From Siphonodentalium dalli (Eukaryota > Mollusca > Scaphopoda > Gadilida > Siphonodentaliidae), in NCBI GenBank assembly GCA_032622095.1, contig CP136061.1, forward strand, positions 94,113,345-94,177,344: a DNA stretch of 64,000 nt, read 5' to 3'. Positions 2,269 through 24,989 of the stretch are shown in pieces. Below the pieces are notes generated by a model that was given only the letters and a program-made list of their open reading frames with translations, did not search any database and was not told the DNA's origin. Position numbers and translations under genes: made by a program. The stretch's first letter is position 1, and every line of letters starts with the position of its first letter.

Positions 2269-3732
2269 GTTGGCACATTTACAGACGCCATAATGATGGA
2301 CTCAAGCAAGATGAAGGCATACGACAGGGATGGGAACGAACAGGATAGCTACCCTTCTTCACAGTGTCCAGTCGGAACAGTCTGCCCTGAGTGCATTAAT
2401 GGAAACCTTGCAAATGAATTTTATCATCAAGATGGAGATTTCATCATTGTGGGGGCAGCTCCGATGTATTATCCATCAGAAAATAGATATGGGTGCGGTG
2501 TAATGTTCGAAACGACTGGAGGCTCTATCGTTGAATCTATGGCGTTCGCAGTTAGAGAAATAAACAAAAAGAAAGGCCGTTTCGCTAGTGTATACCCCGG
2601 GAAGAAACTTGGTTTTATTATCATTAATAGTTGCAACAACGGACTACTCACGCAAGAGCGGATTTTTGAAGTGATAAATGGTTTATCTCCCTTGGGTGAT
2701 ATTAAACATAAAATATTAGGATTTGTTGGAGAGTTAGGAAGCGTCATAAGTCTAGCGATGTCGAGGGTTATAACTGAATTAAAGTACGTGCAAGTAGCGT
2801 ATGCGTCCACGGCTTCAACGCTTAGCGACCGATCTCAACACCCTTATTTTATGAGAGTCATTACAGAGGACAACAAGCAGGCGGAACTCATGGTTGGGCT
2901 TTTGGGAAGATTGCATGCAAATTATATACAGATAATATACCAGGACGATGCTTATGGAAGGGGCGGCTTCCAGTCTATCAAGAGCGCAATAGAGCACAAT
3001 AAAGCTCGTATATGTATAGCGCAATCAAGAGAAGTCACTTCCACTGAGGATTTCGATTCCTTGCTGGAGAGATTACGCGGTTATCCCGAAGCAAAGATTA
3101 TTGTGGCATTCTTGAGGACGAAAGTATTTGAAGATGCAGCACCTTATTTCAATAAAATGAAGTCTGGTGAATTCATGATTATTGGATCGGAGTCGTGGGG
3201 AAAAAGACCGTCCTTCATAGCTGGGCGAAATAACCTCGTCGGCTCATTGGTGACTTCCGTGGAAATGGCATATGACCGAAACCTTGATGAGTATCTGGCC
3301 ACCCAGAAACCAACAATGGAGGACCAACCATCTAAGAATCCATGGCTACAACTCATGATCGAGAGGCGATTGAAGTGTTACTACCCTCAGAGCTTCGATA
3401 AGAAAACCTTCCCTGTTCAGTGTGACGAATCTAAAAGTTACGTATCGGCAGAAAACTACTTACAGGATCCGTTCACACCATTTGCTATTCGGGCAGTCCA
3501 GGCTCTTGTTCTCGGAACCGATAAAGCCATCAAAGACCTGTGTCCCCAAAACGATTTCTGTGATGAGATAAAGAATTACCCCGAGCTAATTGTGGAGAGA
3601 ACAAAGAAGGTTAAATTCGACTTATTTTCAACTGGTGACATGATAGAGATTTTTGATTCTAATGGAGACGGTGCAGTGGGGTATAAAATATACAACGTTC
3701 AACTGAAGAACGGAGATCCAATTTACGAACTG
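2269..3732 (+). CDS. Receptor exon A: class-C Venus flytrap ligand-binding domain
   Basis: This exon encodes 488 residues in phase 0 between an acceptor ending at 2268 and a donor at 3733 (GAACTG|GTGAGC). The domain matches the ANF_receptor/periplasmic-binding fold of mGluR-like class C receptors. An N-terminal FIIVGAAPMYYP strand is followed by MAFAVREIN, and then by YASTASTLSD at 2800, which is the Ser-Thr amino-acid-binding loop of mGluRs. DDAYGRGGF follows, where the mGluR ligand-contact Tyr is kept, and then IIGSESWG. The first residues (VGTFTDA and a Cys-containing linker with CPVGTVCPEC) resemble what normally follows a VFT. Read without splicing, the frame continues to a TAG at 3787-3789. 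The first in-frame ATG is at 2293, but an upstream exon is likelier than initiation there. The ligand is unknown; an amino-acid-like ligand is an inference from the conserved loop. Confidence 0.88.
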
Positions 3733-3785
3733 GTGAGCATAATTAACTCCCATCTTACATTTGGCTGCAACATATCCTCGTGTAA

Positions 3786-4020
3786 ATAGGTTCATATTGG
3801 ACCTAAATATTGACATGTTAATATTGGGCTTAGGTGGTTTGAAATAAGCCGACAGTGGACGTATATCCGTTATTCCGTTTTATGGCGCGGGCCAGAGTGA
3901 AAACACATTATAAAGAATGTATATCTTGTAAGTCGTTTTAGGTTCATATTGAGCGTAATTCAGATTCAAATAATGCAGATGTGGGTTTATTTGTGTTTTT
4001 GAAATAAGTTCAATATGAGC
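3786..4020 (+). repeat. Dispersed repeat, copy 2
   Basis: It begins with AATAGGTTCATATTGGAC and contains a second TTTTAGGTTCATATTGAGC. It is related to 950-1212. It starts just after the donor of exon A and supplies the stop codon met if intron 1 is not spliced. Confidence 0.4.
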
Positions 4021-4059
4021 TTATTTTCATGAAAACAGGCTGATTTACTCCCACCTTAT

Positions 4060-4252
4060 AGTAAACAGGCTAATGTACTCCCACCTTATAGTATACCACA
4101 ACCTGAACGAGTACAGGGAAAACTTATTATCTAGACATTTCCCTCATATAATTAGGGATCCTTCTGGACTTGTATGAATAATAGATCATTCCAATGTATA
4201 CTTATATAACTGAGTGGGAAAATCCATTTAGTATAGACAATCCTTCAAAGGG
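4060..4252. mobile_element. TTAA-type MITE, right end only
   Basis: The right end reads TTTAGTATAGAC, then AAAGGG, immediately followed by TTAA at 4253-4256. It matches the end of the 13017-13788 element (TTTAGTATAGAAAGGG) and the 46240-46454 copy. The left boundary is not clear. Confidence 0.4.
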
Positions 4253-4290
4253 TTAAGTTTTTTTTATTACTGGTCCCTGGGCTCTTCTTG

Positions 4291-5745
4291 TAATATTATT
4301 ATTATCCATTCCTCAACTATAACACTCTTTCTGATTGGGCAAAAGCCGCCACGTGATTATCCGGGAAAAAGTCATATTGGACTCCCGAATGTCATATTGA
4401 ACTCACAAGTGTGCCATATGACCATTTTATCGGGACTGTGACGTCACGAATTAACTCTATTGCGAAATGAATCGGTGAAATTGTGATGCGCTAGCAACAC
4501 GGGTGGATTTAGCAGACGTTTCACTTCCGCAATGAGTTTTTTCTCACTTCCGTGTTTACTGTTCCAAATCTTGCTTTCTGATGATCAATTACATGCTTGT
4601 ATATAGAGAATTAAGTGCCGGCAAATACCAAAAATTACCACAAAAGTTTTATTCCCAAAATTTGGATAAACATACAGATGGATAATAAAAAAATGTCATT
4701 ATACAATGTTGTGTACGGTATGTGTTTTTCTTGTACACGTCCATGGTGTGGTGAAAAAGTCATATTGGACTCGACACTGCGTGTCTCGTCAATTATGACT
4801 TTTCACCACAACCTGGACTCGTATAAGAAATACACAGAATGACACGATGTGTAAATGGATTTGTCAATACGGCACGAGTGCTGTCGCGTCAGGATAGAAC
4901 GAGAAGCGCTTGCGCCTCGAGTTCTATCCTTCCGCGACAGCACGAGTGCCGTATCGACAAACCCATTTACACATCGTGTCGTTCTGTGTTTATTACACGC
5001 TTCGTGATGACTCTTTTATTTAAATAGTTCCAGTTTCGTGGTTGAGGCGAACGTCATGTACGTCATTTTACGTCAACGAGATGCGTATGGAACGTACGTT
5101 GCATACGGATGTGTGAATATGGAACGGCAATAACACTGTACTTCTAGGAACAAGCGTGTAATAAAAACACATACTGTATATGTATAATAACTTTATGTTA
5201 TACAAAAAAAATGTTGTGTACATTATGTGTTTTTCTTGTACCAGTCCAGGTTTTAGTGAAAAGTTATATTGGACGAGACACGCAATGTCGAGTCCAATAT
5301 GACTTTTCACCACAACCTGAACGAGTACAAGGAAAACACACACTGTCAACCACATTGTATGACATTTTATTATCCATCTGTATGTTTATTCAAATTTTGG
5401 GAATAAAACTTTTTGTGATTATTTTTGGTATTTGTCGGCACTTTAATCTCTATAAAAGCCTGTATTGATCACCAGAAAGCATTATTTGGAACAGTAAACA
5501 CGGAAGTGAAAACAAATTCAACGCGGAAGTGAAACGTCTGCTAAATCCACAAGAGTACTGTGCGGGCATCACAATTTCACCGAGTCATTTGGCAATAGAG
5601 TTACTTTGTGACGTCACGGATTCCCGTTAAACAAAAGTCAAATTATATGACTTTTTCCTGGATTATCATGTGACGGCTTTTGCCCAATCAGAAATGGTGT
5701 TATTTAAGGGATGGATAATACATATATTTATTATTATTATAAATT
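4291..5745. mobile_element. Foldback element with inverted arms of about 550 bp
   Basis: The left arm (about 4291-4835) and right arm (about 5180-5745) are diverged reverse complements. The shared landmarks are the segment around TCTGATTGGGCAAAAGCC, the TGACGTCAC sites at 4439 and 5609, AAACACGGAAGTGA, and the AAAGTCATATTGGAC core. Each arm contains its own smaller palindrome. The centre carries a separate 158-bp hairpin. No transposase is encoded, so it would be a non-autonomous foldback or MITE element lying in intron 1 of the receptor gene. Confidence 0.65.
4832..4989. repeat. Near-perfect 158-bp palindrome (hairpin)
   Basis: ACACAGAATGACACGATG at the left is mirrored by CATCGTGTCGTTCTGTGT at the right. 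The arms are about 70 bp with few mismatches and meet around GAAGCGCTTGCGCC near 4911. It lies at the centre of the foldback element and may be a separate nested insertion. Confidence 0.75.
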
Positions 5746-5802
5746 TTCCTAGACCCCTGTGATGTTGTCAGTTGACTAACTATTTTGTTCTGTTGTAACC
5801 AG

Positions 5803-5948
5803 GTTGGCCAATGGTATACCGATACTCACCTTGAATTTAGGTCAGAAAAAGTTGTTTTTCCTGGAGATGTTGCTTTTGTCTCCAACTGCTCGTCCTGTGC
5901 TGGCTGTTTCCTTAATGAGAAAACAGAGATCGAGTCAGGAATTTCCAG
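5803..5948 (+). CDS. Receptor exon B: VFT exit strand and Cys stalk
   Basis: This exon has 146 nt, entered in phase 0 and left in phase 2, between AACCAG|GTTGGC and TTCCAG|GTAAGC. It reads VGQWYTDTHLEF, the strand that closes a class-C VFT (compare 'VG.W' after 'Y.L' at the end of exon A). A short stalk with CSSCAGC follows. Only three cysteines are seen, whereas the cysteine-rich domain of mGluR and calcium-sensing receptors has nine, so a full CRD is absent. An ATG inside the exon in another frame (5804) opens a 73-aa shadow frame that I do not accept. Confidence 0.78.
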
Positions 5949-5999
5949 GTAAGCCCATCAGCATTGCTATAAACTATTTGTTATTATACACCCACTCTG

Positions 6000-6570
6000 G
6001 AATAGCATGGGGTATACTGGTTTGACCTAGTCACTCCGTCCGTCCGTTGCATGGGTCGTCCGTGCGGGCAGATATCTCAAACACCGATTGTCGGGTCTGA
6101 TTGAAACTTGGATGTGCACTACTATGAGGACATTCAACGGAGTGTTCAATCGTTTCTTTCCCAGATTCTCCGTTCCAGTGTTATTCATCTTAGTTTATCT
6201 GGAAGTGTTGCTTTTTGTGTTCGTCCGAGCAGATATCTCCACCACCGGTTGACGAATCTCAGTGAAATTTTGTATGGATGTTCACTACTATGACGGGGAA
6301 TCAATTGATTGTTCAATCGTTTTTTTCTTTTCGTTATAGAGTTATTCAGCTTTGTTTATTTGGAAGTGTTGGTTTTTGTCCGCATCTCTACCACCGGTTG
6401 AAGGATATCAATGAAATTTGGTATGGATGTTCCCTATATATGATGGCAATCAATTGAGAGTTCATTGGTTTTGTTAATGTTTTCCGTTCTAGAATTTGCC
6501 TCCGTGGGGTATGCCAGCACGCCGATGCAACCTTCTGTTTGTTATTGCATTGAATTTTCGTTTCGATCAC
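6000..6570 (+). repeat. Three diverged units of about 145 bp in tandem
   Basis: Each unit carries AGATATCTC..CACCGGTTG-type sequence, then a segment like TGAAATTTGGTATGGATGTTC, then ATTCAACGG- or CAATTGA-type sequence, then TGTTCAATCG. The block begins with the TCCGTCCGTCCG motif that many invertebrate DNA elements carry, just downstream of receptor exon B. The family was not identified. Confidence 0.45.
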
Positions 6571-7024
6571 CTGCAGATTTATCTAAACCAGTGTACTGAC
6601 GTCATTGCTTGGAAGAGACTTCAGTTTAGAGAACATTCAACGGACTAGCAAAACACGATTTTGTTTTATTATACGTCCGTTTTAAAAACGGGACGCATGA
6701 ATGTTTTGTCTATATACGTGTGCGTCAGTTCATTTTTTCGTTTCCGGGTGATGACTAGTGCTGCTAAACTAAATAGAATGATAGTGTGTATGTAGATTGA
6801 CTACCACAAACTACACGACACTCTCTAGTTCGATTGTGTGTCCGGCCACTCATGATTGTTACAATAGCTACGACCCTTTAATGAAATTTGGGCTAAATTT
6901 TGGTTTCCGGATGATAACTGCATGTAGTTAGTGTTGACTAAATGGAATGGAAATTTGGTATGCAGATTTACAGCCAGAAGGTACAGATCAGGTTTGATTT
7001 TGGGTTCAGTGCGCTAATTTTTAC

Positions 7025-7198
7025 ATAAGGATTAACTGTCATGTGGACTGTTTTTATTGGGATGTAACCGCGAGGCGAGTGGTCATAACTTGTGTAAAAC
7101 CCGAAGACCACTCACCTCGCGGTTACATCTCCATAAAAACAGTCCACATGACAGTTAATCCTTATATTTATATACATTTAGCGAAAAAGCCACTTTTG
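7025..7198. mobile_element. Palindromic MITE, left terminal inverted repeat missing
   Basis: ATAAGGATTAACTGTCATG at the left is mirrored by CATGACAGTTAATCCTTAT, and the right terminal repeat continues to ..GCGAAAAAGCCACTTTTG at 7198. The same palindrome with the opposite end preserved lies at 22742-22935. The element is non-coding. Confidence 0.7.
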
Positions 7199-8100
7199 TA
7201 AATTAGTAGAGTCGCTTATGTCAGATTTTGGGCTCCCGTGGGAAATTCATGAACAAATATAGAGACCATGTTCATGAGTCAGTATATGGTCTCTACTTCA
7301 GAAAAAAAATTGTTAGACCCCCTGGGGTCGCGACTGGGTGGACTGATGACGTCACAAAGATGGCCGCCATGCTCATTTTTTTAAGTTCGCCATTGTTATA
7401 TTTCATGATAAAAATATAATTTTGATATAAAATAAATGACAATCCTTTTGTACCGTGCATGGTGTGACGCCATGTTATATTTTTATATAAAAAATGGTGA
7501 CCGAAAGTGGGAAATTGATGATTTTCCATACATGTCGCTTACATCATTTTCGATTGTATCGAACTGGTGACGATTATGGAATATACTTCTCTTCAATCTT
7601 GATAACAACTCACTTAGGCATCACATTAGTTGATTTCTTGAATCATAACCTTGATTTAATTCTCCAAATGCGATGATTTAACGGAATTGGTATGAATTTT
7701 GCCACAATATACTTTTTTTTATTTTCTAACTATATCCTTATAGAAATTTAGAAATAATCGATGATGGAAATGAGTATGATCATTACATAAGGTATTTATA
7801 TCTAACTGGATCCAGAAACTGTCAACATAATCCAAGATGGCTTCCAAGATGGCGGCCAAAATACGATAATACGCAAATTTTACCCTTTTTCTTCCAATTA
7901 CGTTTCTGTCATGTAGAAGGTGAATGTAGTAGACTAATTTGCTTCTTCCAAATAAATATCTACAATGTTACGGCACATTCATAGTAGTTGTCTTTCCGCA
8001 ATGACTCAATATGCGAGTTCATATGACAATTATTGTCCAAATAAGCATCATGAAAATTCGCCAAACATTATATTTGCACACGTCAAATAACATGTCCGCA
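7199..8100 (+). repeat. Mosaic repeat, plus copy
   Basis: It contains TAGTAGAGTCGCTTATGTC, a GACCCCCTGGGGTCGCGACTG segment, TGACGTCAC and AAGATGGCCGCCATG. The same order appears inverted and diverged at about 11760-12691. AAGATGGCGGCC recurs at about 7846, which is a good match to the vertebrate YY1 core. Confidence 0.5.
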
Positions 8101-8357
8101 ACATGAGAACGATATCTCGGTGTTAGATATATGAATTAATGTACTCCGATTTAGATTATCCGGAGTTATTAATATCTCATTGTAATCGAGATGGCCGCCA
8201 ATGTGGTGGAAATGGCGAAATTTGACATTAAAATAGATATATTTCCGAAATATATCACAGCGTGCAAGAAAGGTACATACGCATATCATTATCAAACATG
8301 GGCTTTCGATGAGAAATATATCAAACTGAAATATATGTTCGAGCACGTTAAGTAAAT

Positions 8358-9186
8358 CAGGGTTCATACACCTAGCTGAGAGTAAAATTCCATAACTTTT
8401 TCAAGACTTTCGGACAAATTTTCCAAGACTTTTAAGTTAAAAATTCCATAAATTTTCCATACCTCGTACCTAGCTAAACAATGAGGAAGACCAATATATA
8501 AATTTCCAGGTTGTTTAAACAGAGCACACATATACGTTAGTTAAAATGAGCCCTTTATCTGCAAAGATGCATTCAACTAATTAAGCTGATATGAACAATA
8601 AATCATAAATGGTTTGCATCTGCAACAATTATCGGCCTTGACACCCAGAGTCTATAATTTCTAAAATCATTGGGAAAATAATTACGATTTTCCGGTTATG
8701 GATCACGATTTATTTCGAACAAGGCAATACAACGATTAAAACTATATTTGCACACTATACAATGGTGCTCTCAAATAATTTTGTCGCCAAATATATTCAG
8801 TAACATCAGGTAACTTCGGTGAATTTAGAGAGAGTACGCATTGACATATTTGTTTTAGGTCCGTTCGATTCGCATTCTTTTATTGCGTATATAAATGAGT
8901 TCCGGTAAGGGAGACAATTCGTGTTTCGGCATACCGTAAAATGTGTAGTTCCAACTATAACTACGGAGATGGTATCGTAAGAACGGAAAGTAACAGCGTT
9001 TATATACCTAAGAACTCAGCCTTGGGATATTCCATGACTTTTCAAGACCTTGAATCTCAGGGTAGCTTATTTTCAAGACTTTTTCCATAGTAGGGTGAAA
9101 AAAGGTCCCATTTTCCAGACTTTTCAAGGGTATTGAATCGAAATTTTCGAATTCCATAACTATTCCAGACCCGCGTACGAACCCTG
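8358..9186. mobile_element. CAGGGTTC-ended DNA element, 829 bp
   Basis: The termini are CAGGGTTCATAC at 8358 and GTACGAACCCTG ending at 9186, flanked by a 5-bp direct repeat TAAAT. The subterminal parts are rich in TTCCATGACTTTTCAAGAC-type motifs, as in widespread hAT-like non-autonomous elements. A canonical 8-bp hAT duplication is not evident, so the superfamily is tentative. It has no coding capacity. Confidence 0.6.
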
Positions 9187-11750
9187 TAAATGGACTTAAT
9201 AGAGACCTACGTGGTATGTGGAGATAATAGTGAAGTTTCCAACTTCAGGCGATGTCAGCTACCAATGCTCAAATCATGCATGTGATCGCCATACGTTCTT
9301 GCATATCGATAACGATTGAGTTTATATAATATCTACTCGTATACTAAAAGGTCTAGCGACGGGCTCAATCAGATTACTGTATATAGCTAACAGTAGCTGG
9401 CTTTTGAAGCCTGAAATTGAAAATATAAACCAGGAGATCGCCCGGAACCTTGTTCAGATATTCTAGCTATACTTTATTCTTTTCCATTTCACCATGATAC
9501 ATGTATACCACCGGCATAGGCTTGGTAGATTAATGAGGTTGGATAGTCTGTCGAAGCTACACGGACGTTTTCTGACGTTTTCCATAAAAGTCTTCGTAAA
9601 ATCAACCCTTGTATGGGTACTCTTGGTGATTGGAATGGAAAATCGACACAAAATGATCAGAAACCCCATTCTACCATTCTGGCAAACATATGTGCAGGAA
9701 GAAATTTTGATGATTGCCTCATGCTTAGACTTCTTCTTGTCACCAGTTCATACTATTAAAGTACCGCTACATTTCCACACGTGCATTACTATGACGACCA
9801 AGTTGGGATCTTGACAAATTTGAACTAGAACTCAAGCAATATATTTACTTGTATTGCAGCGATATTAGCATACTTATGTATCACTACATGTATGTACAAA
9901 TGTATACAATTAGTTTGTCTCATATACAAGTAGCGTTTATGTGTATCTGGACCATAACACTATCGTTAGGTGGGGTGAATATAAAATGATTCCCGGAAAT
10001 TACTCACATGGAATAAATACTGTTTAAACTAAAGTCTATCTGATCAAACTGGATTGATTTTCACGTGAACATGTATGGAGCTCTGCGTACAATAGCCCCA
10101 CCATGACCGTGTTCTGCTGAAGTTAATATATATATGCCACTTGGTTGGGGGATTATCAAGATGCATGAATGCAGCATGATATATACAATTTATGGGATAT
10201 AGCCAGACTGATCAGATAACTCCTAGTTGAATAGAATTAGAACAGTTTGAGTCATTAGAATATATATGGATCGGCCTATATAATATGATCTGAAACATGC
10301 CATTATTATTATTATAATGAACCATGGCCACCTCCGTAGTTACGCGTGCTAATTCAACTTCCTTCATTTCCACATTTCCTTTGGTTCATGATAACGTTAT
10401 AACCAGAATCAACATGGCACGTCATGAGCTGTTATTAACTCCAAATATTACTTCACATTATGTTGTAAGAAGTTAGTGGACTGCGTTGCCCCATAATGTC
10501 ATTCAGTATTAAGAACCTGGATTCCAGAGTATATTGGACATAATAAATCAAACTGATGACATGACACTGGAAGACCCATCACTACTAATAGACGTTTCAC
10601 CCGTTTCCCACCACGTGGTCGTACAGTTTGTCAAAACGCGGGAATTAGTATCATAATAAGTATCGCCTGTCTATTTTTGGCTCGTATCTATTGCGCTTAC
10701 CATTCACATTATTTCGTCATCTAAGCTGCATGGTTGGATATGCAAAGCAGTTGCGCAGTCCCTGTTGATTTCGATAAACTTCAAAATAATCGCTAATTAA
10801 GTGCGGCCGGCAGCACAGTCATAACCATTGCCCAGAACCACTTTCCCATTAAACTGATGTACAAACGTAATGCATTGTCTCACTAAACGTTTCACATGCC
10901 TAAATCATAGAAATCAATATGGGATATTAGTTTGCTGTATACTATCAATGGTCCATACCAGCCTAGCGTGTTCATGCCAAGCCACCTTTCGTATATTGGG
11001 CGAATCACTTTGTGTGACTACGACCAATTAACTGAACACGAGGAAAGCCAAGAACCAGACATACCACTTCGCCCGTTTGTGGGGATCTAGCTTGGTGTAT
11101 GGCAATGTTCATTTCAACTGAATAACATGTCCTGTGGGGTCACTAACTTATATTAACTTGTCAAAACTCCACATTTGCAATGAAAGTGGTTGGACTACTT
11201 TGGTGAAAACAATCATCCAGATTTCAGAACCTGGTATTCACAATATATCACTTTAAGCTTGATACGGGACACTACCGCATATACGGATATATTACCCACC
11301 TATGGGTGTCTATTCTATTTTGATCTGTTGTGGTTATCAATACGATTGAAACCTGCTAAGTTCAGCTAAACGAGGTTCAAATGGTGTTTCCATGCAAATT
11401 TAATTAAAGGTTACAGCGCAACTAACAGTGAGATAAGCAGGCCAAATGACAGCCATAGCATTAATTCTACTACTGTTTGTGTTTTATAAACAAGGATGTG
11501 TTGTTTCTTGCTTGCCAAGATTAATGGTATAGCTGAGAAGTACAATCCCACTTCATAGCTATCACAATAAACAATTGCGTATTGCTACCTGCTATGAAAC
11601 ACTATATGCATTTACTACAGATATGTCACGACAAGAACTAACACTAACGATTAACTGCATCATCAATTACCATTTGATATGGTAACCACCATTACTTCTC
11701 ACTTAGTACTTTGGCTAAGAGTATAGCACAGAAGTCTAGACATTGGAATA
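9187..11750. other. No recognisable feature
   Basis: This is part of receptor intron 2. Open frames are at most about 100 codons and have no domain. I saw neither inverted repeats nor tandem repeats of note. Confidence 0.4.
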
Positions 11751-11759
11751 GTAACACTT

Positions 11760-12691
11760 ACCCACCCCAATCTAAGATGGCGGTCTAAGATACTTTCTAA
11801 TTTCACATAGTGAGTTGGATTTTCTCTTCAACACCCTCCTCACTTAATATCAGGAAATTTGAAGAAATGCCGCGTATGCCGTATAGGACATCGCTAATTT
11901 GTATAAGAAATTAAAGCTATGCGCATATACTTAAAATTAGCAGATTAACCTAATTCCCCATGATGGAATGCCAGGGCGACATTTGGTGATGTACCGTAAC
12001 GAACACTGACTTTTGTATTTGACTGCCATTTTGGTAGCCATCTTGGATGAAATTGAACAGTTTTGTTGAAGTCTGATAATAATTCCGCATGTGGCACGAA
12101 TACTTCTTTCCCATCACTGAATGCCGCTCATTTCTTTAAATCTATTGCTACAATATCGGAATTAATTTTTTACAAGATGCTATAATTCGATTGTCTAAAG
12201 TGGATTTTTGACAGATCGAACAACATTTTGTACAATACAATTGGTCACCACATTGCTGAAGCAATAATTAAACACAGAATTGTCACAATTCGCAGTCGAT
12301 ACCAAACGGAAGGTCATTTACATGAGATTCTTGAAAATCGCAAAATTGTTGATTTTTAGTGCCATTTTGGCAGCCATCTTTGACTGGAATAACATTTTCC
12401 CGTTAAATTGGGTACTGTACTTCGAGAACTACTATTGCTGAATTGCCCTAACTGAAAAGAATGTATAACAATTAAGAAATATGCGCTGAATTTGTCAGTT
12501 CTTATGACAACCCTACATCTGAACTGAACTGACAATGACGTCATTTTTGTGACGTCATAATTCTCTCCAGTCGCGGACCCATGAAGTCTAACAAACTTTT
12601 TCCGACAAAGTAAGTGATACCCTATCATAATATCATAGTCTCTATATTTGTTCAAAAAAATCCCACGAAAGTACATAAGCAACTCTACTAA
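11760..12691 (-). repeat. Mosaic repeat, minus copy
   Basis: It is the reverse-complement relative of 7199-8100: GCCATTTTGGCAGCCATCTT at about 12361, two TGACGTCA octamers (12536 and 12550), CTCCAGTCGCGGACCC, and AAGCAACTCTACTA at the end. It joins directly to 12692-12955 without the palindromic MITE seen at the corresponding place in the other copies. Confidence 0.5.
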
Positions 12692-12955
12692 ATGTATTTA
12701 AATCGAAAAGTGTATCGTGATAAAACCAGCCCACAATATCCCATAGCACCCTTCGCAATAGTTAACAGGAACAATCTCTTTATATTGAAACCCGATGATT
12801 TATTAAGTCAATCCTGCGCGTCTTTCTTTCCAAAACCAATGACGCGTCAATGTAATTTTGAGGCTGCAATTATGATCTCTTGCGCGTTCACCGAGAAATA
12901 ATTGCAACTAGCCACGTGGGCGCCGACCAATCGGAATGCTGGCTTTAGTGATAAT
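12692..12955 (-). repeat. Repeat related to 22455-22741, inverted
   Basis: AAGTGTATCGTGATAAAACC, CCCGATGATTTATTAAGTC and GCCACGTGGGCGCCGACC are all found reverse-complemented at 22455-22741 in the same order. Together with the adjoining mosaic repeat it forms the uninterrupted version of a locus that carries a MITE elsewhere. Confidence 0.6.
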
Positions 12956-13016
12956 CAAACTTAGTATGTAAATATTAGTAGTTATCCCATAGGAACTGAT
13001 CAGATAATAAGTTTAA

Positions 13017-13788
13017 CCCTCTATATACTAAAGCATAATTGATGAGTAGTTATCCGATATGAACTGTTCAGATAATAGAATTAACAAACGACCGCATATA
13101 ACTATTTCCCTCAATCAATAGGACTCCTTCTGGACTGTTATGTATCAGGTCAGGCGCATCCTGAATTCCACTATTATAGTGATATTTGACCATTACCGCT
13201 TTGTTAATTTGACAAAAGAGGGATAATCCAAAATCATATTTCACACAAATATTATTCAAAATCAGGTCACACTAATTCGGTATCATACATATAGTTTGTC
13301 CAGGAGAATGATTTATCGTGACGGCACACGATAAGCAACTCCATGCATTAGCATGCAATTAGTTAAAATATTGTTATGACGGAATGATTGAGTCATCCTG
13401 CTATTGTCATTTAGAACGGGATATATTAGTAATATTATAATATTATTGAATATCAAAGCTGGCGCAAAAGATTGCACAACGAATTTTGTCGGAAGACTGT
13501 TCATTCGCTGCGATATTTTTAAGAGTGACATTTGGCTGTGCACTGGTATGCGCCGTCTTCTATTCCCGACGCAAATAAAGAAAACATGAATATGTTATAG
13601 TCAAATATCACTATAATAGTGGAATATCACTATAATAGTGGAATTCCGGATGTGCCTGACCTGTGTATAGCACGCTGTCTGCTTATTTTACCTGTTCATC
13701 CCTACACATGATCAACTCAATAATAGACCATTATGATGGTATATACAATTTGTATCTGACTGGGAGAATCCATTTAGTATAGAAAGGG
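13017..13788. mobile_element. TTAA/CCCT-type (piggyBac-like) MITE, 772 bp
   Basis: It begins TTAA|CCCTCTATATACTAAA and ends TTTAGTATAGAAAGGG|TGAA, so one flank of the TTAA duplication is mutated. Inner inverted repeats include GGTCAGGCGCATCCTGAATT at about 13149 against its complement at about 13640, where ATATCACTATAATAGTGGA is doubled. TTAA plus CCCT ends is the piggyBac signature. No transposase is present. It ends 45 bp before the exon C acceptor. Confidence 0.65.
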
Positions 13789-13833
13789 TGAATTTGACTG
13801 TCTTTCGTCCAGCTGTTTCTCCTAAATTTTCAG

Positions 13834-13946
13834 CCAACAGATTACAGTCTATTCTCAGGCAGTTCTCATCTCTATATTAGCCGTGGTTTTGCTGGTCTTT
13901 ATAGTCATCTTTGTCATACAACGGCGGAATGGCAAGGACAAGACTG
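13834..13946 (+). CDS. Receptor exon C: single transmembrane helix
   Basis: This exon has 113 nt, entered in phase 2 and left in phase 1, between TCCTAAATTTTCAG and GACTG|GTGAGT. It encodes QQITVYSQ, then about 21 strongly hydrophobic residues (AVLISILAVV onward), then the basic stop-transfer QRRNGKDK. The charge distribution puts the VFT outside and the tail inside. It does not read like TM1 of a class C GPCR, which is normally followed by an 'R.NDTP'-type loop and further helices in the same exon. Confidence 0.78.
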
Positions 13947-14902
13947 GTGAGTACCATTTTGTCGTATTCTAAAGATTCCAAATGTGATGTGATGTGTATA
14001 ACAGGAAATATATCCAGGGTATAACCAAATGTTTTGCGCAAACGTGACATGTGACTTCCGGGTTGTCGTCTGTTTACATTCCGTATGCTACTAACGGTAA
14101 CTCGATGTTTTTGACTATTGTTGACTTAGTTTGAATAAATATTTCATTAAATTTACGTCATTAAGTACGTAAAAGAGTCATCTTTTGTTTTTAAAGCATA
14201 AAAAATATGACATTTATCGTTGAAACGATATTTTGTGATATTGTAAAACATTTACGACAATACCATCTGGGACTATAAGTCGAACGACTTGTTCCTTATT
14301 AAATTGATATTATTTATCTTGGACTAATTTTTTACGCGGGAAAACAAAGCATAGTCACATGAAACGTCAGCGCAGGCCTTATATAAGCCGATGTTAGTTT
14401 CACGCACATTTATTGATTTAAGTATCGTTTTATGGATGTTTGGGATAAAGTAATAACTAAAATCTACATTTCGCCCCCAGTTTATAGGGACATTTCAAAA
14501 CTCGTCCAGTAAATTAGGTCTGGACCACTATAAACTGGGGACGACTTGTAGATCCTGTATAGTCCTAATTCCCTTGGGCCAACATCGCTATATACATCTA
14601 TCCGACATATTGTTGCCTTATTGTAGTAAATCACATTGACAAGTGAGTAATCACGAATGTAATTGACCCATTAAAACTGCAACATTGAATCATTATTGCC
14701 GATAATTCCGAACCACAACGCGATGATATCGTTTCAGAAAACACGTCAGCTGAACAATTCACATTGCAAATAAAACACATGGGAAATATTCAATGGACGG
14801 GCATATAGCTTCATATAAAGTGACATTGTGTGTTTCTACCGGATATAAACAATTATAAAATTTATGATAGCATGACTATACTTTGAGCAAATTTTTTCAC
14901 AA

Positions 14903-15160
14903 TTCTCGCTGAGTTCCCCACACTGAGAGCCTTGTCTATATATAGCTATACGGACCCCATATGGTGATACGGACCCTAGTCACTATTCTCGCTGAGTTCC
15001 CCACACTGAGCCTTGTCTAGCTATACGGACCCCGGATGATGATACAGACCCTATTCACTGTTCTCGCTGAGTTCCCCACACTGAGAGCCTTGTCTAACTA
15101 TACGGACCCCGGATGATGATACGGACCCTATTCACTATTCTTGCTAGGATTGTGTTGGCG
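14903..15160 (+). repeat. Tandem repeat block 1 (units 92, 66, 77 bp)
   Basis: Units start with TTCTCGCTGAGTTCCCCAC at 14903, 14995 and 15061 and contain ACTATACGGACCCCGGATG. The block ends in TTCTTGCTAGGATTGTGTTGG at 15138, followed by sequence that is shared with block 2. Confidence 0.7.
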
Positions 15161-15726
15161 GCTCAAATCAATGGACTTTTTAGTTCCGACGTGAGCCTAA
15201 TATTGATCTCGCTGAGCCTCACGTGACACCATATCCGACCAATAAGCGTCCCCGTGACGTATTTATTATGTAAGTGGACAAAATCCAACATATCCCTTTA
15301 AGTAATCGTCCCTGTAATTTATTGTAATTTGGTAAGATAAATGTGTTATGTAACGTCACAGTGACGCGTCATGGGCGTTGAACGTCAACGCATTGAGTCA
15401 ATGGCTAATTACCAGAAGTAGGACAACTTGTTGAGTTTGATAGTCAATTTATGAGTCTTCAGAATTCCTCAAATATATCGCATGCAGGTTTTGGTACATG
15501 GTACTATGTCTTTAAATTCACAGAAAATGATTTCCAACAGATATCCCCTTTCTTGGCGCCAAAACACACCAAAAATATTCCCGTTTCTTTAAAAACAAGA
15601 TGGCGGATAAGCACCTAATATTGATTTCATATTAGGTCACATACCTAATATGGGTTCATATACCGTCACTGTATATCGACGCCGATTTGCTAATTGCAAA
15701 AGCTGACATAATAAATAGCTTTAGGG

Positions 15727-15970
15727 ACCCCATATGATGATACGGACCCTAGTCACTATTCTTGCTGAGTTCCCCACACTGAGAGCCTTGTTTAACTATA
15801 CGGACCCCGGATGATGATACGGACCCTATTCACTGTTCTTTCTGAGTTCCCCACACTGAGAGCCTTGTTTAACTATACGGACCCCGGATGGTGATACGGA
15901 CCCTATTCACTATTCTTGCTAGGATTGTGTTGGCGGCTCAAATCAATGGACTGTTTAGTTCCGACGTGAG
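15727..15970 (+). repeat. Tandem repeat block 2 (77-bp units)
   Basis: Units start at 15759 and 15836 and end at 15913 with the same TTCTTGCTAGGATTGTGTTGG exit and the same following sequence (GTTCCGACGTGAG) as block 1. The two blocks are therefore copies of one repeat-bearing element or a segmental duplication about 780 bp apart. Confidence 0.7.
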
Positions 15971-16029
15971 TGTATGATACATTTAGTGAATTATACTCAA
16001 AGTACTGTTTATACCAGGTAATTCTTCAA

Positions 16030-16611
16030 GGATTGTCCACTAATAAATGGACAATCGGTACCTAAAATGGTCATTAATAAATGGACAATCCAACCACGCG
16101 TGGCAAGCGAGCTTGGGATTGTCCACTAAATGAAGACATGTTTTGTTAATCCTGCATGAAGGGCAATAACTCTATAAATAATGTTAATTTGCTAAATAAC
16201 GGTGATTTGTATGAGAAGAAGTTTTTTTGACGAAATAACGGAGATATTTGAAGAGGAGTTTTTGACGAAATAACGGAAATATTTTAAGAAGTGTTTTTAA
16301 AGAGCGTACCCCAAACCTCCCCCAAACCCACCCACCCAAGGGAAGAATTTGACTTATATTTCACAAAAGTTGATCTGTTGTGATGTTGCAAATTTCTCAT
16401 ACAAATCTCCGTAATTTAGTAAAGGTACATTCTGTATAGGGTTAATTTATTACCCTTCAGATTTAATATGAAGCTAACATGCACGATTATCTATATATGT
16501 CGTGATTTAGTGGACAATCGCAAGCTCGCGTGCCATGCACGCGTTGTCGGATTGTCCATTTATTAACGACCATTTTATAGGTACCGATTGTCCATTTATA
16601 AGTGGACAATC
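16030..16611. mobile_element. MITE with inverted repeats of about 110 bp
   Basis: The left end GGATTGTCCACTAATAAATG is mirrored by CATTTATAAGTGGACAATC at the right. Both arms also share GGTACCGATTGTCC-type inner palindromes and an ACGCGTGGCAAGCGAGCTTG segment. The motif ATTGTCCA recurs in both orientations inside each arm. The interior is non-coding, with two copies of TTTTTGACGAAATAACGGA. No clear target duplication is visible. Confidence 0.7.
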
Positions 16612-16790
16612 TTATGCGCATTATGTGCTTTATACACTATAGACATACAGTTACTTGGTTTACTAGTGATATCATATATATCTTGATTGCCTCCAATTGT
16701 GGAGATTGATTGCTGTACATTATTTACATAATAGTTTCAATACATAAATATATAATAGTGCATACCGTACTATAAAGTACTGCCAATAAC

Positions 16791-16890
16791 GTTTACCATA
16801 TATCTCACAACCGTGTGAGCGCAACAATAGTCAAGTGGATGTTTACCATATATCTCACAACCGTGTGAGCGCAACAATAATCAAGTGGAT
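16791..16890 (+). repeat. 50-bp tandem duplication
   Basis: GTTTACCATATATCTCACAA begins at 16791 and again at 16841, with a single A/G difference seen in the ACAATAGTC / ACAATAATC part. Confidence 0.85.
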
Positions 16891-17059
16891 GTTTCGGAGA
16901 GAAGAAAGAAAAAAAAAAATACACGAAACAATACACAAAGTCTAAAAACAAACATGCACTGCGTATGTCCTAATCGACAGACAGGAAGATGGATTGTTGC
17001 ACATGATCACACGAAGGAGGCTGCTGACCACTTGCGTGTGAGCTATGCTGCATATATAG

Positions 17060-17917
17060 TATTTATGAGAGGTGATATCGTCTTAATTGAAGAAGACCTA
17101 AGTTCATAAGTTTGGAAGACTTGATAAGAAAGGCTGCCGTCAAGAGAATGAATTCATCCCACGCACCAAGGAACTCGTTTGGAACGATAATCGATACTCC
17201 GCCTAGGATTATTGTGAGTAGGTCGGCATCTTGCAAAGAGTCTAAGAATATAAACAAATCAGTACCAAACATATCTATGATAATCATCCAATATCTATGC
17301 CATAGAGCATGAGGTACTGCACTATACTACACGGTGGGTTCTACACCCGAAGAGTGCGTGATGAAGCTCGCTATTGTACAGTGAACCACGCACCATACAA
17401 GTCAGATTGTTGTCGTATGTCCAACAGAGACGCGAGATGTTTCAGCTCTGTCGATTTCCGTATGTTGAGTTTTTTTTAATAAGGACCAGATGCTCCAGCA
17501 CCGGAGAGGGCTAGCGTGGATGGAGCGGAAGACAGAGAGTCTCTCGTCATCGCGGGTAGATAAGTCCCACTCTTCTGGGTATAGTGAGTTTACGGCTGTC
17601 CTTACAATGAAATTCCATTTCTTCTTGGCAGGGAAAACTCCATAGTCAAGGAAGTCATGTAGGTACATTAGAAGGTCATATTTTGTAAGGACTGAAATAA
17701 TATCTGACACGAAACCTGATGATCGCATCCCGAACATGGTGTGTTGATAGCAATTGTTGAGAAATATTTTCAGAGGTGTGTCGTGTTTTGCAGGAAGATG
17801 TATCAAATTTAATTTCGGTAAATATACAGCAAACTGTTTTACGCCAAATATCACGACAAAACAAAAAAGCGGAACGACCGTACATATTATATAAGCAACT
17901 AACGGTAACGGAAACAA
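17060..17917 (-). pseudogene. LINE ORF2 C-terminal fragment
   Basis: The minus-strand frame 17917-17402 (171 codons) contains GFVSDIISVLTKYDLLMYLHD, then a DYGVFPAKKKW-type segment. These resemble the post-RT region of invertebrate non-LTR retrotransposons ('..PDI..IL.KY.L..YL...F..G.FP.K..W..'). After a degraded, stop-containing stretch (17290-17400) where the zinc-knuckle would be, a second open frame (17287-17063) continues with residues typical of the protein's end. There is no reverse transcriptase core and the ends are undefined. It lies inside receptor intron 3, antisense to the gene. Family assignment is by motif memory only. Confidence 0.5.
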
Positions 17918-19073
17918 TTTCGATAAGAAATGATTAATTTAACAATGTCTGACGTTGCATATGTTCTACTGGATACATATTACTCCAACGCCTTCAATTT
18001 ACTGAAGCTTGTGGGAGGTCCAGGTATAGCTACCACGGTCGAGTAACTTTATAGCCATGTGGTGACTCCAGTAGCGTTCTTTAACACGACGTCTGCACGC
18101 ACTCACCGATCGAGGCGTGTACATGCACGGATTAGCCATTAATGTCCGCGTCCGATCGGACCGCGTACTGCACTTACGACAACATACATGCACATGGACA
18201 TATGTTGTAATGGGGGAAAGTCGCCATTTTGCATTCGGATCTGTATTCAATTATCTCGAATGAGACTTTTCAGACTGACAAACTTGGTATCTGACCGAGT
18301 TCTGATTTTTGTCAGAATACACCGACCAGCTTTCGATCCGCGGTCCGCAAGCAGGGGACATCAGTAGCCTACTCCTCGGCTACCGACTTCCCTGGTGATG
18401 ATATGATATATACCGTATAATAATATATACTAATCAAATAGTAACATATATAATAAATGTATTGTATTTGCACTGTATTTTTATGAACTATTTTCTGTTA
18501 AAATATTCGTTACGGTACTTGTGTTATTTTTGACGAATACAATTTAGAAGAAAACAAAATTAAATAGGAGCTATATATGGGGTAACTATTAATAACGTAC
18601 TCGCTATATTTCGTACCGGTTAGACTTTTTTCAGGATGTATGTATTTGCCGATGTATCTTCGCTGATGTCTCATTGTTGCAGTATGTAACTTTTATGACC
18701 GCGTTAATTGTTTTCGATATTTAGGTGTGAACAATGGCTGGGCCACCCTTGAAGATTTTATTGCGGGAACACAATGCATATTATAACAGCTAAAATTGCT
18801 GATGAAGTATGTCTCAGTTGGAAAGTAGACTAAAAGGTTATATTGCAAAGTATCGGGAATGTATTTAATCCGGTTAGAAGAGTTTTTGTCTGCATTTAGA
18901 GGCTTTCTGGTGTGATTCATGAGAAACCTTCAGTGATAAGCCGTATATAGTTGTTTTAATAATTTGAAGGATTAGTTGTTTTAACTGAATTCCGAGGTGG
19001 TCATTCGTGAAGCCAATATATTTTATATTCTATAATTACAATCATGGGTATATTATATATGATCTTGAGTGCG

Positions 19074-19245
19074 TTACCATTTCTGACTATGGGTTTCTTG
19101 TTATAATTACCATGTTGTTTACATCATTCATAGAGCACATGAGTGTATTTTGAACTCATTCATGGCTCAAATTCAGTCATTTGTTACGCATATTATGTTG
19201 AGTATAATAGGAGATGGTCCCATATATGGCCGGATTTAATGACCA
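19074..19245 (+). repeat. Partial copy of the 21755-22208 MITE
   Basis: TTATAATTACCATGTT, TTCATAGAGCACA, ACTCATTCATGGCTCAAATT and GAGTATAATAGGAGATG occur in the same order in both places. The terminal AGAGGTACTG repeats are missing here. It ends about 65 bp before exon D. Confidence 0.65.
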
Positions 19246-19309
19246 TGCGGTTATTATAAACGTGCTTCGTTGTCTTAATGATTGAATTGAATTTTCATTT
19301 ACAATAAAG

Positions 19310-19522
19310 CTGGTGAGTATATTCATGCCACCGGACATAAGAGAGAGGAAGTCTATGAAGTACCACATGAACCAGGCAGTGGATCCAGTGGCTCGGATCC
19401 ACCCAACCCATGCCGACCGACGGGGTCCACTTCGAGCGGGGGGTTACCAGCGTTACAGGCTGGACTCGGCGAGACTGGGAGCCTACCAGGCTTCGCTATG
19501 GGAATATCTCAACCTAGCTACG
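19310..19522 (+). CDS. Receptor exon D: cytoplasmic tail
   Basis: This exon has 213 nt, entered in phase 1 and left in phase 1. The acceptor is TTTACAATAAAG, of moderate quality; the donor CTACG|GTAAGT is strong. It encodes GEYIHATGHKREEVYEVPHE, then a low-complexity Gly/Ser/Pro stretch ending FAMGISQPSYG. The acidic YEVP segment fits a YxxP phosphotyrosine site of the Crk/Abl SH2 kind, which is inference. There are no hydrophobic helices and no kinase motifs. An ATG-initiated 106-aa frame over the same DNA in another phase ignores the splice sites and is rejected. Confidence 0.62.
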
Positions 19523-20458
19523 GTAAGTTATATATTACACATATACATAGCCGTACTGGCCAGGGGGCTGAGAGGTTTACACCCCACAAACGTTTTGAAA
19601 GCTCCCCCTCTCGCCGATTCGCGGCTCGGATAATGCTACGCATAATATATACAGCAAAACATAGCGCCTTCCCCGTTTCCAAATTTTCTGGATCTGCCAC
19701 TTTATTCGCATGAACTTGCAGGTTGGGAGGATTTAGCATCCGTCATACATAATCACCATTTTGCAGACGGACTACTTTTCATTTGAATATCCCGACTGTT
19801 GCCGGAAGAGAACAACGTATTTTAGTCCCGAATACTGGGGGTTCCAAATCTATTTTTTTTTTTCATGCCAGCGCCATGGACTGGATTCGTATAACAAGTT
19901 TTAAATAGCCAAGATAATGCTATAATATATGTTGTGACTAAATGTTTCCAAATTACCAACACTCCATATGAAAATAGGCGAACAGACTTATTTTTGTGCA
20001 GCCACCACACAATTGAAGATGAGTGCTCGGTAATATATGAATATTCATAAGGTCAAGGTAATTTTCCAATATCACATCGTTGTGTACTTCCGAGCTTACA
20101 TTCCGCGAAATCGACGGATCGTAACGAGGAATCCGATTGGTCAATACGTTGATGAGCGGAAACAGGCCAAACTTCCAACATGCCAATATATGAGCACCTC
20201 GTGTTTTCTTATCCCACTGCACAGGGGCCTGTAACGCGCTCCGCTGTCCGCCCCCCCTTTGCACTGCCCATATACGCCGCCTCCATATACGCGCCTTCCT
20301 ATACGCGCGTATAGAGAGGCGGCGTATATGGGCAGTGCAAAGGGGGGGGGGCGGACAGCGGAGCGCGTTACAAGCCCCTGTGCCCACTGTCAATTTTACA
20401 GAGGAAAGTTTCAGCGACTGTAATTGTTAACAAGGATTTGCAACTTTTTGTTTTACAG
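19523..20458. other. Receptor intron 4
   Basis: It runs from GTAAGT to a strong acceptor, CAACTTTTTGTTTTACAG. Its only notable content is the 163-bp hairpin element at 20220-20382. No coding sequence was seen. Confidence 0.6.
20220..20382. mobile_element. 163-bp perfect-hairpin MITE with 7-bp target duplication
   Basis: The ends CACAGGGGC and GCCCCTGTG are flanked on both sides by CCCACTG (20213-20219 and 20383-20389). The arms of about 65 bp are nearly perfect complements, including a run of C (left) against a run of G (right) and GCCCATATACGCCGCCTC with its complement. The loop is itself partly palindromic (ATACGCGCGTAT). The conserved arms suggest recent insertion. In transcripts of the receptor gene it would fold into a long RNA hairpin about 76 nt before the terminal exon. 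Confidence 0.82.
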
Positions 20459-20535
20459 GGTTGATGCCTGGAAGATCCATATCTGACACAAGCATGCAGC
20501 GCGGATATCTGAATAGATTCAATGATAACACGTAA
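20459..20535 (+). CDS. Receptor exon E: C-terminus and stop
   Basis: Entered in phase 1, this exon completes a Gly codon and encodes LMPGRSISDTSMQRGYLNRF followed by NDNT and TAA at 20533-20535. The acceptor is a strong polypyrimidine tract. The 3'UTR is about 110-130 nt. No PDZ-binding consensus is evident at the C-terminus. Confidence 0.68.
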
Positions 20536-20640
20536 CATCTTCGAATCGTACTCCGTTTAGTCGTCAAGGAATCTGTGCTTAGCGTGGTGTTGTATATACT
20601 CAAAGATATACACGCATTCATTGGACTTCCTCCTTCGATT

Positions 20641-20646
20641 AATAAA
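20641..20646 (+). terminator. Polyadenylation signal AATAAA of receptor gene
   Basis: A canonical AATAAA lies 106 nt after the TAA of exon E, as expected for a short 3'UTR, with a cleavage site probably near 20660-20670. Confidence 0.65.
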
Positions 20647-20664
20647 TCACATACATTTGAGGTT

Positions 20665-24896: not shown

Positions 24897-24989
24897 TTAA
24901 GCTATAGCTTATTTCAGAGTAGTTTTTCTCAGTTGCAATTAATATGCCAGTATATTACAAATTATAATGCTTTTACATTATTTCAGACC

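Follow-up and report, generated by a model that had tools for sequence, protein, structure and literature searches.

A scaphopod gene family predicted to encode single-pass receptors with two tandem Venus flytraps of the metabotropic glutamate receptor type

Venus flytrap (VFT) receptors of animals act as dimers with one VFT per chain. Metabotropic glutamate receptors (mGluRs), which are class C GPCRs, have seven transmembrane helices (7TM); the Venus kinase receptors (VKRs) of invertebrates are single-pass proteins with an amino-acid-type VFT and a kinase; natriuretic peptide receptors and receptor guanylate cyclases combine a VFT with a single transmembrane (TM) helix, and one of them, NPR-C, ends in a short tail instead of an enzyme domain. 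The receptor gene of the scaphopod Siphonodentalium dalli described here resembles each of these only in part. It shares with mGluRs the type and fold of the VFT, a VG junction after it and the residues that bind alpha-amino acids, but has two VFTs, a three-Cys stalk with no match to the NCD3G cysteine-rich domain and one TM helix instead of seven, and it does not keep the residue set for the glutamate side chain. It is as single-pass as the VKRs, its VFTs are likewise of amino-acid type, and the Tyr found in VKRs at the position of mGlu1 K409 is also present in VFT1 of the family (5/5); unlike VKRs, it has two VFTs rather than one and no kinase was found. From natriuretic receptors it differs in its two VFTs, which match mGluRs among the PDB matches listed, and in that no guanylate cyclase was found.

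A similar layout is reported for the trypanosome receptor adenylate cyclases, with two extracellular VFTs above one TM helix and a cytosolic cyclase domain (PMC6027212); this likeness is one of layout, and those are protist proteins with a class III cyclase, whereas the present receptor is from an animal and gave no cyclase match. Two tandem VFTs above a TM segment are also a feature of the bacterial sensor kinases BvgS and EvgS, histidine kinases that offer an analogy only. SmGBP of Schistosoma is reported to be a truncated, membrane-associated mGluR with one VFT, no 7TM and no more than a possible N-terminal hydrophobic segment, and to bind glutamate; a single-TM splice form of mGluR3 is cited there as well (PMC3206071). 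The present receptor is similarly an mGluR-type VFT protein without 7TM, but appears to have two VFTs and not to keep the glutamate side-chain set. No animal tandem-VFT receptor is among the literature matches listed (in two of the listings, the best 20 of 36 and the best 20 of 95), where absence does not mean absence from print and unreviewed predicted proteins lie outside the scope, and the accessible portions of a study of ascidian class C GPCRs do not mention two VFTs (PMC9138782). The view of the first-pass annotation that this architecture matches no standard one stands for the animal receptors checked, but has to be narrowed in the light of SmGBP and the trypanosome cyclases.

In the window, i.e., the whole stretch of 64,000 nucleotides that was analysed, five exons (A to E, Table 1) join in frame. 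Their lengths (1464 + 146 + 113 + 213 + 77) give 2013 nt, all have canonical GT-AG borders and compatible phases, and the frame terminates with a TAA at 20535, a polyadenylation signal lying nearby. This five-exon observation, made in the first-pass annotation, is confirmed, as are the three-Cys stalk, the single helix with a basic stop-transfer (in exon C, where QRR comes directly after a single hydrophobic segment) and the Gly/Ser/Pro-rich tail, which is about 105 residues long. It was incomplete rather than wrong: the 5′ end of the frame is a splice acceptor with no start codon, so that the window holds only the 3′ part of the gene. Four further coding exons lie upstream of the window, the first of those found being ~21.1 kb upstream of its first base; they supply the likely signal peptide and another VFT of mGluR type, VFT1. 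The single VFT of the earlier model, which had missed this N-terminal part, must therefore be replaced by two in tandem. The predicted whole gene has nine GT-AG coding exons, the last five inside the window, and a frame of 1137 residues with the layout signal peptide, VFT1, Cys linker, VFT2, three-Cys stalk, one TM helix and tail. The start codon is provisional and a further upstream exon is likely, because the exon that supplies this first ATG has a splice acceptor at its own 5′ end.

Table 1. Features of the receptor gene within the window.
Feature	Position	Strand	Remarks
Exon A, 5th of 9 coding exons	2269..3732	+	ANF_receptor 128.9 bits; best PDB match mGluR3, E 1.5e-39
Exon B, VGQW-type stalk with CSSCAGC, about residues 956-1004	5803..5948	+	Matches at 5/5 other loci
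Exon C, single transmembrane helix (about residues 1013-1032) and basic stop-transfer	13834..13946	+	
Exon D, cytoplasmic tail with YIH and VYEVP, Gly/Ser/Pro-rich	19310..19522	+	86% identical in the inverted paralogue
Exon E, final 25 residues and stop	20459..20535	+	1 other genome match, in the inverted paralogue
AATAAA polyadenylation signal	20641..20646	+	

Exon A is a symmetrical 0-0 exon containing a three-Cys linker and the entire VFT2 (residues 468-955), and exon C was the sole hit of a phase-constrained scan for TM exons over 5948-30000. What takes this structure beyond chance is an inverted paralogue (INV) 0.2 Mb away, which has counterparts of exons A-D and the one match elsewhere of exon E with its acceptor. 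Exon E was considered as an artefact, and this was rejected when its counterpart was found 12 kb farther along in INV (C1:94301338-94301444(-), 94% identical over 20440-20545, the single further match that the genome search gave); the last codons and residues of INV differ from those of the window gene through a one-base insertion.

With matches admitted at E up to 1, Pfam analysis of the 1137-residue protein gave ANF_receptor twice and no other domain; NCD3G was thus without a match at this threshold, short three-Cys linkers being present instead. The AlphaFold model of exon A (pLDDT 82.6) has mGluRs as its best Foldseek matches, and the PDB matches listed (best 60 of 92 and best 60 of 97) are mGluRs, taste receptors and the calcium-sensing receptor, with no natriuretic receptor among them. 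These comparisons show both predicted VFTs to be of mGluR type, in line with the class C assignment made at first. In mGluR3 numbering, S151, T174, D194, Y222 and D301 are all retained in VFT1 of the window receptor and INV, and the first four of these in VFT2 at 6/6 loci, where D301 is replaced by Glu in five copies and by Ala in one. R68 and K389 are non-basic in every aligned copy and R64 is Asn or Thr, with Lys in VFT1 of INV, while an mGluR of the same genome retains all nine listed pocket positions. The glutamate side-chain set is not kept in the VFTs of the window receptor, and the residues that remain would suit amino-acid-like ligands, as had been proposed. Since VFT1 joins the classical mGluR VFTs in a tree in which VFT2 forms a clade of its own, an origin of VFT2 by simple internal duplication of VFT1 is not supported, although the branches are long and the placement is weak.

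INV has counterparts of 9/9 coding exons and is identical to the window protein in 1038/1138 aligned columns (91%). An origin as a haplotype duplicate was rejected, because exon sequences diverge by about 5-10% and large parts of the introns fail to align. Over exons 1-3, A, B and D, dS is 0.140 and dN 0.034 (ratio 0.24), with 0.20 for exon A, 0.21 for exon B and 0.80 for exon D. Four more paralogues (C3a, C3b, C6a and C6b) are located on two other chromosomes, and three of these four retain both VFTs together with the TM exon. Overall, VFT1 lobe-2 matches were found at 5/6 loci, VFT2 at 6/6 and the TM exon at 5/6, its counterparts being in INV, C3b, C6a and C6b. C6a and C6b have counterpart tail exons in matching phase with YI[HT] and VYDDI, a tyrosine pattern defined after viewing the alignment; between them, dN/dS is 0.35 for VFT2, 0.68 for the tail and 1.38, from few changes, for the TM exon. 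No tail exon corresponding to exon D was found for C3b. On the evidence of these copies, the predicted receptor is shown to be conserved as a paralogous family.

Domains that could signal directly were sought at the family loci. The 7tm_3 profile had no match near any of the four family places (44/44 candidates scored), and tblastn of the examined downstream DNA gave only weak 7TM hits (E 0.44 to 0.76), none of them convincing; a hidden 7TM was therefore rejected. The same DNA gave no kinase match by tblastn although the kinase positive control was recovered, and on this basis a kinase domain was rejected too; the kinase-profile search of the genome (145/743 candidates scored) carries little weight, its candidate list having been taken up by a large kinase array. 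A guanylate cyclase domain was rejected on a negative profile search at the four places (150/194 candidates scored), Guanylate_cyc (PF00211) matching neither the window receptor protein nor the loci. The earlier statement that neither 7TM nor kinase is present agrees with these results. Elsewhere in the genome, VKR-like VFT and tyrosine-kinase exons occur at C2:177.25-177.26 Mb, separate from the receptor loci; a non-kinase frame beside a VKR-like exon matched INV DNA at 1e-9 in tblastn and was taken for a repeat. At a further tandem-VFT locus (C1:17.34 Mb), no TM exon was found in the DNA examined.

Our tentative reading is that the window gene encodes a single-pass, two-VFT amino-acid receptor or co-receptor that works non-enzymatically, through partner VFTs or tail tyrosines. 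At the plasma membrane, with its 105-residue tail in the cytoplasm, each VFT would close around a non-glutamate alpha-amino acid, and closure would rearrange the packing of VFT against VFT, whether both belong to one chain or the second is supplied by a partner VFT receptor. The signal would be relayed by the partner, or by SH2/adaptor proteins binding the tail tyrosines (YI[HT], VYEVP/VYDDI), and for this reason the receptor would need no enzyme of its own. Ligand, dimerisation and partner are putative. The weak constraint on the tail, in both exon D and the C6a-C6b comparison, counts against this reading, as do the basic residue at position 64 in VFT1 of INV, the altered last residues of exon E in that copy, the failure to find a tail exon for C3b and the signs of decay in C3a and C3b.

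The same weak tail constraint, set against the stronger constraint on the VFTs, would fit a decoy or clearance receptor that captures amino acids so as to clear or buffer them without sending a signal. The failure of Pfam, cyclase-profile and tblastn searches to find an effector domain agrees with such a role, as does SmGBP, which is reported to be membrane-associated and to bind glutamate although it has no 7TM. However, the distant paralogues C6a and C6b retain the tail exon with tyrosines at similar places, and a sink would seem to need less than two linked VFTs; on balance, we consider a decoy unlikely.

Somewhat more doubtful is a pure co-receptor with an inert tail, whose VFTs would dimerise with those of class C GPCRs and set their response to ligand. 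Class C VFTs are established to act as dimers, and candidate partners exist in two arrays of the genome (C4) that resemble class C GPCRs with five VFTs and share the same kind of phase-0 junction; VFT1 and VFT2, however, do not group with the C4 VFTs in the tree, a split that is weakly supported (82/87).

Some members of the family may be in decay, because VFT2 of C3b contains one in-frame TAA and C3a yielded neither a VFT1 match nor a TM exon counterpart, its exon B counterpart continuing into a stop. Decay of the family as a whole is nevertheless very improbable, given that the window and inverted copies are open across all nine exons and that the dN/dS values over six of these exons and for VFT2 of C6a and C6b are low. 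Finally, a splice form running on into a 7TM or kinase beyond the exons seen can hardly be credited: the partly scored kinase profile and the limited stretches of downstream DNA covered for the paralogues leave some room for it, as does a possible donor ahead of the tail stop in C6a and C6b (GAAG|GTAGGA, CAAG|GTACGA), which would allow a further exon there, but the 7tm_3 and tblastn searches, the recurrence of the TM exon on two other chromosomes and the preservation of exon E with its stop region in INV all speak against it.

VFT proteins without 7TM and two-VFT, single-TM proteins of protists were known already; to these, the sequences would add a small animal gene family of two-VFT single-pass receptors. 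It is rather uncertain, and we would not assume, that they represent a new animal class of tandem-VFT amino-acid receptors signalling by tail tyrosines or partner VFTs with neither enzyme nor 7TM, as one product of a wider phase-0 VFT-cassette radiation giving poly-VFT receptors, with five-VFT class C GPCRs among them. If our reading of the window receptor is true, a chain with one helix and two VFTs that keep the amino-acid-binding residues would amount to two VFTs covalently paired by nature, permitting tests of signalling by VFT packing alone. The VFT cassette, flanked by phase-0 introns at a VG codon, would permit tandem VFT duplication; through such junctions, multi-VFT receptors could arise by a simple genomic route, one that, to judge from the five-VFT 7TM arrays, may have been taken more than once.

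The first-pass annotation had described a receptor with one Venus flytrap domain (VFT) and one transmembrane (TM) helix, encoded by five exons. We rechecked the exact borders and phases of this in-frame join (2013 nt, with a TAA stop and AATAAA nearby), and all agree. The class-C-type VFT in exon A is likewise borne out (ANF_receptor, 128.9 bits); its closest solved relatives are metabotropic glutamate receptors (mGluRs), with mGluR3 as the best PDB relative in a sequence search of solved structures (E = 1.5e-39), and mGluRs are also the top PDB fold matches of its AlphaFold model (mean pLDDT 82.6, from an alignment of 13 sequences, all from the S. dalli genome). While the exons and the one TM stand, the single VFT does not. 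In the 2.23 Gb assembly, where the window is C1:94113345-94177344, the gene extends beyond these five exons, with four more coding exons 5′ of window base 1, which supply a complete additional domain, VFT1 (top PDB matches again mGluRs; mGluR3, E = 2.6e-20). Upstream exon 1 opens at a splice acceptor, with its ATG ten bases on, which makes an additional 5′ exon likely; the start codon is therefore only assumed, and the hydrophobic N-terminus reads like a signal peptide. The nine-exon product has 1137 residues, in which Pfam recognizes two ANF_receptor stretches and nothing more at E up to 1, in keeping with the claimed lack of a 7TM or kinase domain.

Coordinates of the window gene, its predicted product, its paralogues and the C4 arrays
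Feature	Position	Strand	Remarks
Upstream coding exon 1	window-relative -21104..-20860	+	first found; starts at splice acceptor
Upstream coding exon 2	window-relative -19775..-19653	+	
Upstream coding exon 3	window-relative -8610..-8432	+	
Upstream coding exon 4	window-relative -1654..-791	+	
Exon A	window 2269-3732	+	GT-AG borders, phase fits; VFT
Exon B	window 5803-5948	+	GT-AG borders, phase fits
Exon C	window 13834-13946	+	GT-AG borders, phase fits
Exon D	window 19310-19522	+	GT-AG borders, phase fits
Exon E	window 20459-20535	+	ends at stop TAA
AATAAA	window 20641	+	3′ of exon E stop
VFT1	residues 28-467		
Linker + VFT2	residues 468-955		
Stalk, TM, tail	residues 956-1137		
INV	C1:94325550	-	VFT2 match, inverted copy of window gene
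C3a	C3:162403908		VFT2 match; C3a/C3b 58-60% identical
C3b	C3:162469418		VFT2 match; C3a/C3b 58-60% identical
C6a	C6:182606604		VFT2 match, 49% identical
C6b	C6:110630895		VFT2 match, 49% identical
C4 array 1	C4:205402401-205429900	one strand	five VFT modules then 7tm_3 exon (profile searches)
C4 array 2	C4:205473001-205505400	one strand	five VFT modules then 7tm_3 exon (profile searches)

Just upstream of exon E, window 20219-20383 holds inverted repeats nested one in the other (arms of 47 nt, 94%, and of 39 nt, 97%) and resembling a small palindromic element. Window 24943-26124 is open in several frames (CYIGYSNCYLCA and similar); being a low-complexity tandem repeat, it was rejected as a gene on the available evidence.

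At the sequence level, the window gene belongs to a paralogous family in the S. dalli genome. A genome search with VFT2, the exon A domain, gave six close loci, window included; VFT1 lobe 2 is present at five of them and was not found at C3a. The inverted copy, INV, has counterparts to all nine coding exons, and the two proteins are identical in 1038 of 1138 aligned columns. Its exon E with acceptor (C1:94301338-94301444), the sole other match reported for window 20440-20660 in the genome search, carries a frame shift just short of its end. Between the two copies dS is 0.140, dN 0.034 and dN/dS 0.24 over exons 1-3, A, B and D, leaving out exon 4 (codon gap), exon C (just below the 90% length filter) and exon E; per exon, dN/dS is 0.20 for A, 0.21 for B and 0.80 for D. 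For C6a versus C6b it is 0.35 in VFT2, 0.47 in exon B, 1.38 in exon C and 0.68 in exon D. A decoy function of the window-gene protein is possible and would fit the weak constraint on the tail, although retention of the tail exon in distant paralogues argues against it.

The single TM is, from the predicted exons, a trait of the family. The stalk exon B has matches at all five other loci, reading into a stop at C3a, and a phase-matched TM exon occurs in INV and C3b. A scan whose sole requirements were a splice acceptor, the correct phase, a hydrophobic 21-mer, basic residues and a splice donor returned the known TM exons in its controls (window and C3b, one hit each), one hit in C6a, three in C6b and none in 5.6 kb at C3a. 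Two of the C6b hits are one segment, homologous to the C6a hit, and the third is a different segment. Chance hits are rare, since the reverse complements (315,952 bases) gave three: the INV TM exon, which lies on that strand, and two that represent a single weaker segment. The exon following the TM exon in C6a and C6b encodes a readable tail of about 64 residues before a stop, in which YI[HT] and VYDDI occupy the places of YIH and VYEVP in the window gene; a possible donor precedes this stop in both, so a further E-like exon is possible. A tyrosine pattern, drawn up after the alignment had been seen, has a single match in the searched downstream stretch of each of three loci (window, C6a and C6b) and none in that of C3b.

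Searches for an effector domain found none in the window gene or its paralogues. Profile searches gave no family-locus match for 7tm_3 (28 matches genome-wide, 44 of 44 candidates scored) or guanylate cyclase (150 of 194 scored); that for kinases was weak (145 of 743 scored). With an S. dalli kinase as query (positive control, 3e-17), tblastn detected no tyrosine kinase in the downstream DNA of the six loci (the entire window, and 10 to 20 kb at each other locus), and two S. dalli 7TM exons gave weak matches alone (E 0.44 to 0.76).

In mGlu1 the alpha-amino and carboxyl groups are held by Ser165, Thr188, Asp208, Tyr236 and Asp318, and the side chain by Lys409 (PMC2680970). The equivalents of the first five in mGluR3 are positions 151, 174, 194, 222 and 301, a numbering that agrees with the exon A PDB alignment rows; R64, R68 and K389 of mGluR3 hold the glutamate side chain. 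The five alpha-group positions are all conserved in VFT1 of the window gene and INV, as are 222 and 301 in C3b, C6a and C6b, where lobe 2 alone was compared. In VFT2, 151, 174, 194 and 222 are conserved at six of six loci, and 301 is Glu in five and Ala in C3a. The R68 and K389 positions are non-basic wherever aligned, the latter being Tyr in VFT1 (5/5) and Phe, Trp, Met or Ile in VFT2; at the R64 position VFT1 has Asn in the window gene and Lys in INV, and every VFT2 (6/6) has Thr. As a control, S. dalli's own mGluR conserves all nine listed positions. Because the alpha-group residues are largely conserved and the side-chain set is not, both pockets look suited to an alpha-amino acid, probably other than glutamate, which favours the amino-acid-like ligand proposed earlier. 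Venus kinase receptors have Tyr at the K389/Lys409 position, as in VFT1 of this family, and that of the honeybee was activated by L-arginine (PMC2680970). In a signalling receptor, an alpha-amino acid would bind, the VFTs would close on it, and the signal may pass via a partner or the tail tyrosines.

Two mGluR-type VFTs with one TM and no enzyme were not found together in the literature and solved structures searched. The proposal that the protein matches no standard architecture holds to that extent, but two VFTs above one TM are known outside animals, in trypanosome receptor adenylate cyclases (PMC6027212) and in bacterial BvgS-type kinases; both have an enzyme, whereas none was found in the window gene. 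SmGBP, an animal protein likewise without 7TM, has one VFT (PMC3206071), unlike the two here.

As to origin, nine of 12 exon starts (C4 arrays, C1:17.34 Mb and C6b) are phase 0 at a VG-type codon pair (VG, VA, AG, IG), and the other three fall within a VFT. In the window gene and in INV, exons A and B start in this way too, so exon A is a symmetrical cassette. VFT2 is a separate clade in the tree. VFT1, whose branch is very long, groups with classical mGluR VFTs (96/92); the tree thus does not show simple self-copying of one VFT.

Other VFT loci were also seen. Tandem VFTs joined at a VG phase-0 junction also occur at C1:17342001-17360000, which has an inverted partner near C1:17391700-17395900; no 7tm_3 match was found nearby, nor a TM exon in the DNA scanned. 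The VFT and tyrosine-kinase exons at C2:177248307 and C2:177261035 share a strand, lie about 13 kb from each other and probably belong to a Venus kinase receptor. Separately, protein kinase frames of near-identical sequence, most of them 281 aa long, form a large minus-strand array with few-kb spacing at C2:149.8-150.6 Mb; they account for about 94 of the 147 matches that the kinase profile search listed.

For the two C4 arrays, a Pfam recheck confirmed five VFT exons and both 7TM exons. In the tree, the fourth VFTs of the two arrays pair with each other (93/92), as do the fifth (100/99), and several internal modules open at VG-type acceptors, with no start codon there. The simplest reading, an inference given that the inter-module DNA was read in part, would be two class C GPCRs with five VFTs apiece, and these arrays are perhaps more striking than the window gene itself.
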